A stretch of DNA of 64,000 nt from Pedococcus sp. 5OH_020 (GTDB taxonomy: Bacteria > Actinomycetota > Actinomycetes > Actinomycetales > Dermatophilaceae). The DNA is taken from assembly GCF_027812955.1 (NCBI RefSeq), contig NZ_JAPYZV010000006.1, forward strand, positions 248,001 to 312,000, in the 5' to 3' direction. Below are positions 40,717 through 46,427 of this stretch, piece after piece (the stretch's first letter is position 1; each line of letters begins with the position of its first letter). A program made the translations under genes and the position numbers. The notes under the pieces are model-generated. The model saw nothing but the letters and a program-made list of their open reading frames with translations, searched no databases and was not told the DNA's origin.

Positions 40717-41286
40717 GTGGCTGTCAAGATTCGTCTGAAGCGGATGGGCAAGATCCGCACCCCGTTCTACCGGGTGGTCGTCATGGACTCGCGCACCAAG
40801 CGCGACGGCCGGGCCATCGAGGAGATCGGCAAGTACCACCCCACCGAGGACCCCTCGGTCATCGACATCGACTCCGACCGTGCGCAGTACTGGCTGACCC
40901 AGGGGGCACAGCCCACCGAGGCTGTGGCCGCGCTGCTCAAGGTCACCGGTGACTGGCAGAAGTTCAAGGGCGAGCCCGGCGCGGAAGGCACCCTGAAGGT
41001 GAAGGAGGCCAAGCCGAGCAAGCGAGAGCTCTACGAGGCCGCCATCGCCGCCGCTGGGAAGGATGCCGCGGGCACCGACGGTGCCACGACCCCGCGCAAG
41101 CGTGCGGCCAAGAAGGCAGACGAGGCCCCTGCTGCCCCCCAGCCCGACCAGGCCCAGGCCGAGAACCCCGAGAACGTCGCGGCCATCGAGGACGCGGTCG
41201 AGGCTGAGGTTGTTCGTGAGGCTGAGGCCGAGCGTTCCGCCACCTCCGAGAGGGGCGACGAGCCGGTCCCGGGCCAGGGGTCCTGA
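40717..41286 (+). CDS. rpsP: 30S ribosomal protein S16
   Basis: 189 aa. The S16 fold occupies residues 1-85 ([31 protein letters not shown]...). A long Ala/Glu/Lys-rich tail of about 100 residues follows, beyond the roughly 80-90 aa of enteric S16 and seen in many actinobacteria. GTG 40717 has AGGAGA upstream. First gene of rpsP-khpA, with rimM-trmD after a hairpin. Confidence 0.95.
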
Positions 41287-41288
41287 CC

Positions 41289-41531
41289 GTGCTGGAGGAG
41301 GCGCTCGAGCACCTCGTCAAGGGCATCGTCGACCACAAGGACGACGTCGCCGTACGACGCAAGGAGCTGCGCCGCGGTGAGGTGCTGGAGGTGCGGGTCC
41401 ATCCCGACGACCTCGGCCGCGTCATCGGCCGGTCGGGGCGGACCGCCAGCGCACTGCGCACCGTGTTGGGCGCCCTCGCCGGTGGCCACACCGTCCGCGT
41501 CGACATCGTCGACACGGACAAGCTGCGCTGA
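41289..41531 (+). CDS. khpA: KH-domain RNA-binding protein KhpA
   Basis: 80-aa single KH-domain protein. The RNA-contact loop is VIGRSGR (GxxG = GRSG) near residues 45-51. KhpA usually pairs with KhpB/Jag in RNA binding linked to cell size and division control. GTG start 2 nt after the rpsP stop; the rpsP-khpA-rimM order is conserved in Gram-positives. Confidence 0.93.
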   Translation: MLEEALEHLVKGIVDHKDDVAVRRKELRRGEVLEVRVHPDDLGRVIGRSGRTASALRTVLGALAGGHTVRVDIVDTDKLR

Positions 41532-41644: not shown

Positions 41645-42190
41645 ATGTCCGACGCTCCCCAGCTTCTCGTCGCCCGCATCGGCAAGCCCCACGGGCTGCG
41701 CGGGGAGGTCACGGTGCAGACGCACACGGATGACCCCGAGCGGAGGTTCGTCGCGGGCACCGTCTTCGCCACCCAGGCCGTAGCAGGCTCAGGCGTCCCA
41801 CGGGCGCTGACCCTCCGCACGGCGCGGCAGCACCGCGCGATCTGGCTGCTGGGTTTCGACGAGGTTCCCGACCGCACCGGCGCGGAGTCGCTGCGCGGCA
41901 CGAGACTTCTCGTGGACGTCGCCGAAGTGACGGAGCCCGCCGACGACGACGGCTACTACGAGGACGAGCTCGTGGGTCTGTCGGTGGTCACCGTCGACGG
42001 CGACGCCGTCGGCGAGGTGACCGGGCTGGAGACCGGGACGGCCCAGGACCTACTGGTCGTACGGCTCAGCTCGGGAGCGGAGGCCCTCGTGCCGTTCGTC
42101 ACGGCGATCGTTCCCGAGGTCGACGTCGAGGGCGGGCGAGTGGTCATCGACCCGCCCACCGGGCTGCTCGAGCTCAACGAAGGCGGTTGA
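41645..42190 (+). CDS. rimM: 16S rRNA processing protein RimM
   Basis: 181-aa ribosome maturation factor that binds S19 and helps 30S head assembly. N-terminal RimM domain [28 protein letters not shown]-terminal PRC barrel with [16 protein letters not shown] near 100 and [24 protein letters not shown] near 143. ATG 41645 lies 6 nt after GAGGAT (41633-41638), a candidate leaderless -10. Confidence 0.94.
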
Positions 42191-42192
42191 CC

Positions 42193-43407
42193 GTGCGCCT
42201 GGACGTCATCTCGATCTTTCCCCAGTACCTCGCACCCCTCGAGCTCTCCCTCATCGGGCGGGCCCGTCGGGAGGGGCTGCTCGACCTGCGGGTCCACGAC
42301 CTGCGGGACTTCACGCAGGACCGCCATCGCACGGTGGACGACACGCCGTACGGTGGCGGCGCTGGGATGGTGATGACGCCGGAGCCATGGGGACTGGCCC
42401 TGCGGCAGGTGGTCCGCTCAGGCAAGGGCGAGCCGCCCCCCCGACTCGTGGTGCCTGGTCCAGGGGGCGCACCGTTCACCCAGGCGATGGCTCGGGCACT
42501 GGCTGCGGAGCCGTGGCTGGCGTTCGCGTGCGGGCGCTACGAAGGGATCGACGAGAGGGTCTACGAGCATGCGGCGCAGGACCTGGGCCTCGAGGTCTCC
42601 GTCGTGTCGCTGGGCGACTACGTCCTCAACGGCGGTGAGGTGGCGGTGCTCGCGATCGTGGAGGCCGTCGCCAGACTCCTGCCCGGGGTGGTGGGCAACG
42701 CCGACTCTCTGGTCGAGGAGTCGCACGAGGACGGGCTGCTCGAGTACCCGGTCTATACCAAGCCCGCGTCCTGGCAGGCGGCCCCTGGCGTCCGTCGCGA
42801 CGTACCACCCGTCCTGCTGTCCGGGGACCACGCTGCCATCGCGTCCTGGCGGCAACAGCAGCGCCTCGAGCGCACCGCGGCCCGGCGCCCCGACCTGCTG
42901 CACCCTTCGCAGGCCGTCGCGGTCGCGCCCGGGGCCGATGCGCTGGCCGGCCTGGACCTGGCTGTGGCCACGCCTGCAGACGCCGCCGAGCTCATGACCC
43001 TGACCCGAGCCTGCTGGGCCCCTGAGATGGCGCAGCAGGGGACCTGCGGCGCAGCGCAGGAGACCTTGCAGGACGTCATCGCCGGACTGGCGGTATGGCG
43101 CACCTGGACCGTTCGCAGCCAAGGGCGCCTGGTCGCCTCGGTGCGGACGCGCCCCTCGCCGGACGACCCGAGCCGCTGGCAGATCGGGCGTCTCATGGTG
43201 GCGCCGGACCTGCAGGGCCGCGGGCTCGGGAGGGCGCTGCTTGCGTTCGCTGAGGCGGACGCGCCGTCAGGCACGACGACGTACTGCCTCGACACCAGCA
43301 CCCGCTCCCAGACGAACCTCCGGATGTTCCGTAAGGCCGGGTACCGGGTCGCCACGCCTCAGGGGGCCCAGCACGGGACCGTCGTCGTCAGCAAGGCTCG
43401 TCGGTGA
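42193..43407 (+). CDS. trmD: TrmD tRNA (m1G37) methyltransferase fused to a GNAT domain
   Basis: 404 aa, about 150 longer than usual TrmD. The N-terminal part (1 to about 240) is a full SPOUT methyltransferase that makes m1G37 in t[15 protein letters not shown], the knot [12 protein letters not shown] near 110, [15 protein letters not shown] near 138 and [16 protein letters not shown] near 175. From about residue 256 there is a GNAT acetyltransferase with acetyl-CoA loop [15 protein letters not shown] near 334-348 and [12 protein letters not shown] near 378. The acceptor of the GNAT half is unknown. GTG 42193 is 2 nt after the rimM stop. The tail overlaps the convergent APH gene. Confidence 0.92.
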
Positions 43408-44281
43408 GCAGTGCCGTGAGGGTATGGTGCGCCAGCCGCGACAACACGGGGTTCGTCACCCGGTAGTAGTCGAGGCAGCCGACCGCTCGCGCGAAGGCCC
43501 ACGCCTTGCCGCGCTCCCATCGGGCGTCGTCGACGTCGAGCGACTGTCGGAAGACGCGTCGTGCTGGCGGTTCCAGCAGGTTCCAGGCCGGCATGAGGTC
43601 GATCGCTGGATCCGCGGGCGCCAGGCCGCCCACGTCGATGACGGCAGCGAGGCGGCCACCTCGCATGAGGAGGTTCCCGGGCATGAGGTCCCGGTGGGCC
43701 CACGTGTCCGCCTCGGTCCGGGCGGCTGTGCGAAGCCTCTGCCACAACCGTTCCAAGGCCCGCACGTCGATGAGATCGCGGCTCCGGCGAAGCGCGGTGT
43801 CGACGTAGTCGTCCTGCAGTGGAAGCGGTCCGCCGCGGCCCTGCCCCGCGAAGCTGCACCCTTCGACGTCCATGGACCAGAGAGCTGACACGACCGCTGC
43901 CAGGTCCTCGGCGAACGCTCTGGAGGCTGCCACGCCGGCGTGCGACGCGGTCGCTCCCGGGAGCCAGCCATACACGGCCCATGGCAACGGGCAGGTGGCG
44001 GTGGGCCCGCCGAGCATCAGCGGTTCGGGGGTCGGCACGGGAAGGCGGCCGAGCAGGCGTCGAGCCGCAACGGCCTCCTCGGCGAGCAGGAGCCGACCGG
44101 CCTCGACGTCGTCTCCTTGGAGAGGGAACCGCAGCACCAGGTCGGGACCGAGCCGGAACAGCTGCGTCACCGTGCCGTGCGAGGGAACCCGGCGCAGCGG
44201 CAGACCCTCGCACTGGGGGAGCCGCTCGGCGACCAGCCCGGCCACAGATTCCAGACCCAGGTCGAGCTGGTCGGCATGCAT
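43388..44281 (-). CDS. Aminoglycoside phosphotransferase (APH)-family kinase
   Basis: 297-aa APH/choline-kinase-fold protein. The catalytic loop is [11 protein letters not shown] near 195 and the Mg-binding segment [16 protein letters not shown] near 214. The nucleotide-binding beta strands include [12 protein letters not shown] near 54. Such proteins phosphorylate small hydroxyl compounds; antibiotic resistance cannot be inferred. ATG 44281 is preferred over an ATG at 44374. It overlaps the 3' end of trmD by 20 bp. Confidence 0.82.
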
Positions 44282-44394
44282 CGGCACCCGGGCAGCATGC
44301 GCGGGGCGACCCGCCCGTCGCAACCGGTTTGGCTGCTTTCGCCCAGCCTGCCGAGGCAGCCCATCTCGACGCACTCAGTCCGCGAACGCACTCG

Positions 44395-44440
44395 GTCCGG
44401 TAACGTCCTCAGTCCGGTAACGTCCTCAGTCCGGTAACGG
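44395..44440. repeat. 17-bp direct repeats
   Basis: GTCCGGTAACGTCCTCA occurs at 44395 and 44412, with a third copy truncated after GTCCGGTAACG at 44429. It lies between the stop of the FetB-like gene and the start of the APH gene, in the leftward transcript. Confidence 0.7.
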
Positions 44441-44469
44441 TCTGGTCCGGCGTCGTCGGGCCAGCGCCC

Positions 44470-45228
44470 TCAGTCCCGCAAGGCGGCCCGCAGGTCCCGG
44501 GGGACGAGGCGCCGGGCCGCGATGAGCCGTTCCGCGACCGCCACGGTGACCGTCTGCGCCGCCATGATGCCGAACAGCACCAGCACCTGAGCCGTAGCTG
44601 CCTGCACGGGGGAGCCACCCCCGAGCATGACGCCGATGAAGGCCCCGGGAAGCGTGACGACACCGGTGGTCCGCACCTGGTCCAGGCCGGGGAGCAACGC
44701 CTCGGGGGCTCGACGGTGGACGATCTCGTGGATCGCCTGGCTCGGCAGCAGCCCGAGCGAGAGGCACGCCTCGTACTGGCCGTGCTCCTCGCGAAGGGCG
44801 GCGAACGCCCGCCGCCCGACCAGCGTGTGGGCGGTCATGGCGTTGCCGACGATGATGCCTGCCACGGGGATGACGGCGATGCCCTGGAGGGGGATCGTCC
44901 GGGTGGCCAGCACGACCGCCACGACAGGTAGCACCCCAGCCGCCATGGCGACCGCGGCAGCAGCCCACGCGGTCTGTGCCTCGACCCGGCGGGTCGTGGT
45001 GAGAACGCCCATCGCGAACATGACGCAGACCAGCGCGATCGACAGTGCGAGGCTCCGTACGACGGCGGCGATGAGCAGCGCGGCGACGCCGAGCTGAGCG
45101 ATGGCGCGCACTGCGGCCACCAGCACTGGTCGCTCGAGCCCGTAGCCGCTGCCGCGATGCGCTGCGAGAGCGATGCCCAGCAGGACGGCAAGCGCGAGGG
45201 CGACGGGCCAGCCCGGGTCGATGGTCAC
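44470..45228 (-). CDS. FetB/UPF0014-family ABC permease-like protein
   Basis: 252-aa membrane protein with about seven hydrophobic segments. Family motifs include LIAAVVRSLALSIALVCVMF near 52, VAGIIVGNAMTAHTLVGRR near 122-140 and RTTGVVTLPGAFIGVMLGGGSP near 188-209. In E. coli FetA-FetB exports iron under stress. No FetA-type ATPase is adjacent here, so the partner, if any, lies elsewhere. Divergent from the LacI-type gene. Confidence 0.85.
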   Translation of the reverse strand: MTIDPGWPVALALAVLLGIALAAHRGSGYGLERPVLVAAVRAIAQLGVAALLIAAVVRSLALSIALVCVMFAMGVLTTTRRVEAQTAWAAAAVAMAAGVLPVVAVVLATRTIPLQGIAVIPVAGIIVGNAMTAHTLVGRRAFAALREEHGQYEACLSLGLLPSQAIHEIVHRRAPEALLPGLDQVRTTGVVTLPGAFIGVMLGGGSPVQAATAQVLVLFGIMAAQTVTVAVAERLIAARRLVPRDLRAALRD

Positions 45229-45294
45229 CGGACAACGCTAGCGACGCAGGAGGTGTGCCCGGCGATGGGCCCGTGGGAAGTACACCGCAGGGCC

Positions 45295-45354
45295 TTGACG
45301 CGCCTCAGAGAGGTTCTGTATCGTTCTACTAGAACGTTCGAGTAGAACGATACA
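45295..45354 (+). promoter_or_regulatory. Promoter with tandem LacI-type operators
   Basis: TTGACG (45295-45300), 18 nt, TATCGT (45319-45324) form a strong promoter. Two 15-bp odd palindromes, CGTTCTACTAGAACG (45322-45336) and CGTTCGAGTAGAACG (45335-45349), overlap by 2 nt. Together they lie in a 38-bp inverted repeat (45317-45354) that covers the -10 and transcription start. This fits autorepression by the LacI-type gene at 45369. Confidence 0.8.
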
Positions 45355-45368
45355 GACAGGAGGACACG

Positions 45369-46427
45369 ATGGGACGGGTCACGTTGAAGTCCGTCGCAGA
45401 GGCGGCCGGAGTGTCCGTCTCCACCGTGTCCAACGCCTACAACAGGCCGGGGCAGCTGTCGGCCGAGGTACGGCAACGCGTGCTGGAGACGGCGAGGTCA
45501 CTGGGGTATGCCGGGCCGGACCCGGCCGCTCGCAGCCTCCGGTCCCAGCGCGCGGGCGCCATCGGCCTGCTTTTCACCGAACGGCTGAGCTATGCGTTCT
45601 CGGACCCGTACTCCGTCGGGATGCTGGCGGGGCTGTCGGAGGTCGCCGAGGCCCATCGCACGGGTCTCCTGCTGATCCCGCTCGCCTCCCCGGACTCCAG
45701 TACGCCGCAGGACGTGGAGCTCGATGCGGACACCATGCGTCAGGCCGTCGTCGACGGCGTCGTCGCCTACTGCGTCGACGCCGACCACCCGGCCCGGCAG
45801 GTGGCTCTCGACCGAGGTCTGCCGATGGCCTCGACCATCGAGCTCGACGACGACCGGCAGCGGTACGTCCTCATCGACGAGGACGGAGCGGCCAAGGCCT
45901 TGGGTCGGCATCTGCGAGAGCTGGGTCATCGGAACGTCGGCGTCGTGGTCAACAGTCGTGAGCCTGCTGGTGCTGCCACCCTGCTGAGTGCCGACGACGA
46001 GGAGGACCTGTACTACGACTCCCGGCTGCGTCTGCGAGGCCTGCGCCAGGCACTGGGCCCGCAGGCGCAGGTGACGGCGGTGTCGGCAGGTCACAACTCG
46101 CAGGAGGCGGGCCGGACGGCCGCCCGGTTCCTGCTGGACCGGCCCGACCGGCCGACGGCCATCGCCTGCACCAGTGACGTGCTCGCCCTCGGCGTCCTGG
46201 ACGCGGTCAAGGCCCGCGGGCTGGCCCCGGGTCGCGACGTGTCCGTCAGTGGGTTCGACGACATCCCCGCGGCCCGGGCGGCGGACCTCACCTCGGTCCG
46301 CCAGCCCATCGCCGAGAAGGGCCGGCTGCTCGGGCGGATGCTCCTCGACCCGCAGTTCACCCAACGCAAGGTCGTCCTCGACACCGAGCTGGTCGTCCGG
46401 TCCAGCACCGGCCCGGCACCGCACTGA
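45369..46427 (+). CDS. LacI-family transcriptional regulator
   Basis: 352 aa. Helix-turn-helix TLKSVAEAAGVSVSTVSNAYN with hinge helix RSLRSQRAGAIGLL, then a periplasmic-binding-protein-like effector domain. SVSGFDDIPAARAADLTSVRQPI near 287-309 is the typical C-terminal segment. The inducer is unknown, since no sugar operon is adjacent. AGGAGG lies 7 nt upstream of ATG. A tandem operator over its own promoter suggests autoregulation. Confidence 0.92.
   Translation: MGRVTLKSVAEAAGVSVSTVSNAYNRPGQLSAEVRQRVLETARSLGYAGPDPAARSLRSQRAGAIGLLFTERLSYAFSDPYSVGMLAGLSEVAEAHRTGLLLIPLASPDSSTPQDVELDADTMRQAVVDGVVAYCVDADHPARQVALDRGLPMASTIELDDDRQRYVLIDEDGAAKALGRHLRELGHRNVGVVVNSREPAGAATLLSADDEEDLYYDSRLRLRGLRQALGPQAQVTAVSAGHNSQEAGRTAARFLLDRPDRPTAIACTSDVLALGVLDAVKARGLAPGRDVSVSGFDDIPAARAADLTSVRQPIAEKGRLLGRMLLDPQFTQRKVVLDTELVVRSSTGPAPH

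Follow-up and report, generated by a model that had tools for sequence, protein, structure and literature searches.

TrmD–GNAT fusion proteins in Actinomycetota: a tRNA m1G37 methyltransferase carrying a C-terminal acetyltransferase domain

The trmD locus and its two-domain product

The window, a stretch of 64,000 nucleotides from Pedococcus sp. 5OH_020, contains on its forward strand a single reading frame, open throughout, in which a TrmD runs on into a GNAT domain (Table 1). The gene order is rpsP, a KH-domain gene, rimM and trmD-GNAT, with 2 nt between the rimM stop codon and the trmD start. Here trmD is separated from rplS by three genes, encoding an APH-like protein, a UPF0014 protein and a LacI-type regulator (43388-46427), and after rplS comes a signal peptidase gene. 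The APH-family gene is convergent with trmD-GNAT, and the ends of the two genes overlap by 20 nt (43388-43407). The ribosomal protein S16 of this locus, of about 189 aa, carries its S16 domain near the start only, and a long Ala/Glu-rich tail comes after it.

Table 1. Coordinates of the trmD-GNAT gene, its parts and its neighbours in the window (residues numbered as in the fusion protein).
Feature	Position	Strand	Description
rpsP, ribosomal protein S16	40717..41286	+	Probable GTG start, AGGAG upstream; PF00886 on 40735-41283
KH-domain (KhpA/KhpB) gene	41289..41531	+	PF13083
rimM	41645..42190	+	Probable ATG start; PF01782, PF24986 on 41648-42187
Shine-Dalgarno-like AAGGCGG	42180..42186	+	6 nt 5' of the GTG start; sequence
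trmD-GNAT fusion gene	42193..43407	+	404 aa, GTG start, stop codon within the end coordinate; same frame in the 80/80 kept relatives (best 80 of 529)
TrmD part, residues 1-238 (tRNA m1G37 methyltransferase, SPOUT)	42193..42906	+	NF000648 4.5e-86, TIGR00088 3.1e-70; PDB 6w14 7.7e-74
Linker, about residues 239-254, after RRPDLLHPS	42907..42954	+	Sequence alignment; DSSP of structure model
GNAT acetyltransferase part, residues 255-404 (domain about 255-402)	42955..43404	+	PF00583/PF13508 above cutoff
Acetyl-CoA loop QGRGLG, residues 341-346	43213..43230	+	Sequence
Phe379 codon	43327..43329	+	Tyr in 92/102 unique fused sequences
APH-type phosphotransferase-family gene	43388..44374	-	PF01636
rplS, ribosomal protein L19	46931..47290	+	PF01245

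The original prediction of a complete TrmD was confirmed, since residues 1-238 score above the cutoffs of both NCBIfam equivalog models (NF000648, 287.6 bits against 220; TIGR00088, 236.1 bits against 195). The in-frame GNAT domain with a good acetyl-CoA loop was likewise recovered: PF00583 (40.8 bits, cutoff 20.7), PF13508 (38.0 bits, cutoff 27) and PF13673 all exceeded their cutoffs, with the Pfam GNAT models aligning to residues 303-385 and QGRGLG at residues 341-346. In an alignment of 74 TrmD sequences, D180 of the fusion protein is conserved in at least 90% and is presumably the catalytic aspartate, D169 of E. coli TrmD. The SAM-site motifs of TrmD are also present, and G114-R115-Y116-E117-G118, S139, G141-D142-Y143-V144 and N146-G147-G148-E149 are invariant in the 74 aligned sequences; passages of one study give the consensus of this site as CGRYEGxD and a second motif of 11 residues (PMC5217690). 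The fusion protein is the sole TrmD of the genome (4.43 Mb, 32 contigs), and its N-terminal part, as the only TrmD of the cell, should make m1G37 in tRNA.

The original prediction had named a sequencing error, or an internal start yielding two separate proteins, as grounds for giving up the fusion. A sequencing error is ruled out by the same frame, which runs through both domains in 80/80 loci kept (372-419 aa), these being the best 80 of 529 relatives, biased to close relatives, so that 80/80 is not a frequency. Within the scanned residues 225-300 of the window protein, a script found no Shine-Dalgarno-like word at the in-frame start codons at 258, 268 and 279, and the TTG at 292, with AGGA upstream, falls inside the GNAT domain. 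An in-frame start codon near the linker occurs in 71 of the 80 relatives, accompanied by a word of at least 4 bases in 24 and of at least 5 bases in 5, and no conserved second start near the linker was seen among the 80 by this simple Shine-Dalgarno word match. The scattered in-frame starts alone, with the 4-base words of those 24 relatives, speak for an artefact or for two separately made proteins, through a frameshift error or an internal start. Such an explanation was rejected, and its probability is negligible in view of the shared frame and of the lack of a conserved internal ribosome-binding site. Judged from sequence, the product is a genuine two-domain protein.

TrmD is essential in the bacteria studied so far, and is called so in the title of PMC5217690. 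It also serves as a drug target, and structures with bound inhibitors were numerous among the fold-search matches listed. When compared with the single-domain mycobacterial TrmD (PDB 6w14/5zhi), the fusion protein is alike over its whole N-terminal 238 residues but has an extra C-terminal GNAT, about 165 residues with the linker; in many unfused actinobacterial TrmDs a C-terminal tail resembling LDxxDLxVLAEEGW stands where the fusion has the GNAT. The described TrmD fusion, in the available text of two reports, is TrmD-Tm1570, a double SPOUT protein (PF01746-PF09936, PDB 8b1n), which also places a second enzyme domain at the TrmD C-terminus (PMC11187310, PMC1829167). Its second domain, however, is another knotted SPOUT and not a GNAT, and PF09936 is absent from the Pfam matches of the window protein (E up to 1). 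No paper on a TrmD-GNAT fusion was found in titles and abstract openings, although the architecture may still be recorded in domain-architecture databases, and the available portions of PMC5217690 and PMC1282579 do not mention one. Within the limits of this literature search, the fusion is undescribed. Among the putatively essential proteins reported in the available part of a transposon study in Schaalia are some with GNAT activity and no match among known essential genes; trmD is not named there (PMC12369343).

Structure prediction had been proposed as a check. In the AlphaFold2 model of the full-length protein, the GNAT blocks at 251-404 have a mean pLDDT of 74-97, the GNAT part thus being confident in most blocks, but the placement of the GNAT relative to TrmD is not confident (pTM 0.53). 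TrmD itself is poorly modelled, with residues 169-187 below pLDDT 50 and an rmsd mostly of 6-7 to known TrmDs, and TrmDs alone were among the matches listed in fold searches with the full-length model. When the GNAT domain was folded by itself from a single sequence, the model was of low quality (pLDDT 54). Sequence searches of the PDB returned, beside TrmDs, weakly scoring GNATs of many kinds, the best at 6.5e-10 (1y9k).

Two fusions and their distribution

By the match table, TrmD extends into a GNAT of the window's kind, here called type 1, in 125 of the 149 genomes of the window's family. The statement that TrmD usually has a single domain must be qualified accordingly, since most genomes of this family carry the fusion. 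Among the remaining 24 genomes, 21 have a match that ends after TrmD, one has a fragment (G091), one a weak match only (G108) and one none (G085); 20 of the 21 TrmD-only genomes were read by sequence, and in all 20 the protein stops within 231-266 aa without a GNAT. Broader samples were drawn, all within Actinomycetota. Type 1 was present in 8/10 genomes of the window's family and 1/1 of a further family (f87, at a contig end) in an order-level sample of 139 genomes, and in 4/4 of the window's family and 8/8 Nocardioides in a class-level sample of 138. A genus of the same family as Nocardioides (g64) has it in 0/3 genomes, two read by sequence and one from the table. Three species of Ornithinimicrobium are fused and five are not. 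In the window's own genus, Pedococcus bigeumensis has the fusion with 76% identity to the window's copy, and the frame is kept open in eight same-genus relatives of 72-76% identity. Within its lineage the fusion is thus widespread, and it extends over whole actinobacterial groups.

Because many Nocardioides and window-family fusions have a common junction, RRPDLLHPS or RRPDLLHAS, a single type-1 fusion event, followed by losses or transfer, appears more likely than two events. The number of losses is not certain, since many branches of the TrmD tree are weak and its bootstrap did not settle. Auraticoccus, of the Propionibacteriaceae, also carries type 1, and its TrmD groups in the window's family in the TrmD tree (89/86), which hints that this fusion came by transfer.

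A second fusion, to a different, PaiA-like GNAT (type 2), was found in two other families, in 18 of the 19 genomes sampled (f89, 9/9; f81, 9/10), as proteins of 415-485 aa (loci L212-L220, L228, L229, L244, L245 and L247-L251). The remaining locus, L246 of genome G567 in family f81, encodes a TrmD with a long C-terminal tail matched by neither GNAT profile, perhaps a decayed domain or a third kind of domain. In the other 109 genomes of the order-level sample, 37 read by sequence stop at 229-320 aa without a GNAT, and the other 72 were assigned from the match table, where a third kind of GNAT would escape notice.

When two type-2 fusions (L213 and L228) were scanned against the NCBIfam GNAT models, the best was that of PaiA, the spermidine/spermine N1-acetyltransferase (NF053587), at 55.2 and 52.2 bits (7e-15 and 6e-14) and below its cutoff of 250. 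Standalone relatives of the type-2 GNATs, at 43-55% identity, were found in 8/59 genomes, and the same model was the best for three of these standalone proteins, one of them in the window's genome; all five proteins score 52-80 bits against the cutoff of 250, and the window's type-1 GNAT has no match to the model at E 0.1. The standalone PaiA-like GNAT of the window's genome (L269:971-1561; G000:C1:123215-123727, minus strand) is 55% identical to the L213 GNAT.

The type-1 profile matches standalone GNATs at 1e-26 to 1e-49. On 11 type-2 fusions it gave 7 matches at 1.5e-7 to 8e-4 and none at 1e-3 for the other 4; a much smaller search with seven type-2 proteins added later matched five of them, at 2e-10 to 6e-5. 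The longest branch of the GNAT tree, about 3 (2.1 + 0.9 across the midpoint root), parts type 1 from type 2 with support of 100/100, and the seven type-2 proteins used in the TrmD tree form one clade (98/83). The two types still belong to one superfamily (hhalign probability 98.7). On the profile scores and the two trees, TrmD has therefore gained a GNAT on at least two occasions, each from a different subfamily, and a single common origin was not supported, given the weak cross-profile matches and the long branch of the GNAT tree. This double origin is the interesting part of the finding.

Conservation and probable activity of the GNAT domain

In 102 unique type-1 fused sequences the glycines of the acetyl-CoA loop are kept (G342 in 97, G344 in 100, G346 in 98), and the strict pattern [QR]xxGx[GA], present in the window as QGRGLG, occurs in 78. 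Outside the loop, the conserved positions are W275 (92), E278 (89), E290 (97), R308 (96), R333 (97), Y379 (92) and G383 (100). The tyrosine that serves as general acid in GNATs lies at the start of helix 4 and is not universal among them; we take Tyr379 to be this residue. It is absent from 10 of the 102 sequences, among them the window's copy, where Phe379 takes its place, Phe being found there in 2/102. This copy also has Ala-Ala at 287-288, positions at which Ile (66) and Pro (80) prevail among the 102. With Phe379 and no Ile-Pro at 287-288, the activity of the window copy may be reduced or changed, and Phe379 together with the altered segment could even mean little or no activity in this organism.

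Selection was assessed on the 40 lowest-divergence pairs of 213. The dN/dS of the GNAT was below 0.69 in all 40, and 0.12-0.36 in the 12 closest, and TrmD gave the lower value in 38 of the 40; the window GNAT against four relatives gave about 0.31-0.62, with dS nearly saturated. The GNAT is under purifying selection, weaker than that on TrmD.

These observations bear on two alternatives. According to the first, in the window's lineage the GNAT would be a domain without function that is being lost, as might be read from its dN/dS above that of TrmD, from degenerate CoA loops in a few copies (L084, L092, L234, L235), from the absence of the domain in at least 20 genomes of the family and from Phe379 with the changed segment 276-292 in the window copy. 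Decay of this kind is unlikely, however, as dN/dS stays below 1, the frame is open in all eight same-genus relatives, and QGRGLG, E278 and E290 are intact in the window copy. According to the second, the GNAT would bind acetyl-CoA without turnover that matters and tune the activity or stability of TrmD to the acetyl-CoA state. The retention of the CoA-loop glycines while the rest varies, and the lack of Tyr in 10/102 sequences including the window's copy, are consistent with such a sensor, but most members conserve Tyr379 and the pocket residues as expected of catalysis, and we know of no precedent for an acetyl-CoA sensor on TrmD; this explanation is quite improbable.

Relation of the acetyltransferase to TrmD

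The GNAT has not simply moved elsewhere in the relatives that lack it. No type-1 GNAT was found at another place in the 20 TrmD-only genomes of the family (best match 5e-5), so that relocation was rejected (20/20 without a copy), and in nine fused genomes the same search gave no second type-1 GNAT with a match better than 8e-5. A pseudogene remnant was likewise rejected: with the GNATs of the three fused Ornithinimicrobium as queries, none was found downstream of the unfused trmD in 20 loci, the three weak matches reaching E 0.67 at best.

Two specific roles were also considered. RimI, the ribosomal protein S18 alanine N-acetyltransferase, belongs to the same superfamily, but the fused GNAT matches its model (TIGR01575) only weakly, at 18.1 bits against a cutoff of 86.4. 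A separate RimI-like gene is present in 23/23 genomes, above the cutoff in 19, the window's genome among them, and the four genes below it (76-85 bits) are from two Nocardioides (both of those tested), one g64 genome and one type-2 genome; it is thus unlikely that the GNAT substitutes for RimI. An RNA-binding GNAT was not supported by charge, the mean net charge of type-1 GNATs (+1.6, against -1.7 in standalone relatives) not being strongly basic.

Coupling of m1G37 formation to another modification, which the original prediction had suggested, is possible. In a coupled enzyme, TrmD would dock the tRNA anticodon arm or an intermediate of ribosome assembly, and the tRNA, its aminoacyl group or a bound protein would be acetylated by the tethered GNAT. 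Several observations are in line with this: GNATs of different subfamilies have been captured at the C-terminus of TrmD, at least twice, in fusions common to whole families; W275, E278 and E290, beyond the CoA loop, are kept; and the domain is retained lineage-wide under purifying selection. The gene also sits with rpsP, rimM and rplS in a translation gene cluster. The next probed gene after trmD-GNAT is rplS in 26/26 Nocardioides loci (208-336 nt from the match end in 22 of these), an adjacency that would fit a translation role; it is likewise the next probed gene in 17/20 TrmD-only loci of the window's family, and UPF0014 is in 35/54 non-Nocardioides fused loci. Accessory domains, for the most part nucleic-acid-binding or nuclease ones, are found on other SPOUT enzymes, as stated in available passages of PMC1829167. 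We nevertheless regard a coupled enzyme as a tentative proposal, considering the modest charge of the type-1 GNATs, the loss of the domain from 20 family genomes without replacement, the occurrence of the same GNAT subclade on FMN reductases, the missing Tyr of the window copy and the number of GNATs in these genomes, which makes chance capture plausible. A narrower form, in which m1G37 formation is physically linked to acetylation at the anticodon loop, on a nucleotide, the charged amino acid or a tRNA-bound polyamine, would explain why a GNAT was captured at least twice; the polyamine is considered because the type-2 GNAT is PaiA-like. This form is doubtful, and if true it would mean a bifunctional methyl/acetyl enzyme of tRNA modification that has become fixed in entire families of actinobacteria.

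Two fusions of TrmD to different GNATs in one phylum can be seen as natural experiments, which suggest that the methylation of tRNA and the chemistry of acetyl-CoA may have a link so far unseen; this link is made testable by the fused and unfused species of Ornithinimicrobium that stand side by side. If there is no link, the case warns against inferring the substrate of a GNAT from its fusion partner.

The reading that we prefer, at a probability of about 0.5, is that the GNAT is an accessory N-acetyltransferase, tethered to TrmD but acting separately. It is favoured because both domains score above cutoff, the fusion is conserved across the lineage under purifying selection, the GNAT is absent without replacement in some relatives, a second capture has occurred, and FMN-reductase fusions exist. 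The C-terminal GNAT would then be an acetyl-CoA-dependent enzyme, probably catalytically active, which in most of the lineage would be kept so by selection on its own substrate, probably a small amine or peptide; it would be co-produced with TrmD from the ribosomal-protein/tRNA-modification gene cluster, and TrmD would presumably not need it, with no obligate coupling between the two. The two captures by TrmD count against this accessory role, as they may reflect a functional link. Repeated capture need not mean such a link, however, because GNATs are plentiful in these genomes, each of which gave 7-29 matches to the RimI model.

The FMN-reductase fusions seen are two only (PF03358-GNAT; L117:856-1947 and L120:1489-2586). 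Their GNAT is of the same subclade but has a different N-terminal partner, and it nests within the TrmD-fused clade with modest support (81/87); the signature RCCW..EA..N..(I)PALHES of the TrmD-fused GNATs is found in L120 and nearly so in L117. These proteins argue against a substrate dictated by TrmD. Taken with the TrmD-only genomes, they suggest that the GNAT has, or formerly had, other partners and that TrmD works without it. At a further locus (L123:1438-2223), a single open frame encodes an antibiotic biosynthesis monooxygenase domain (PF03992) and, after it, a related GNAT.
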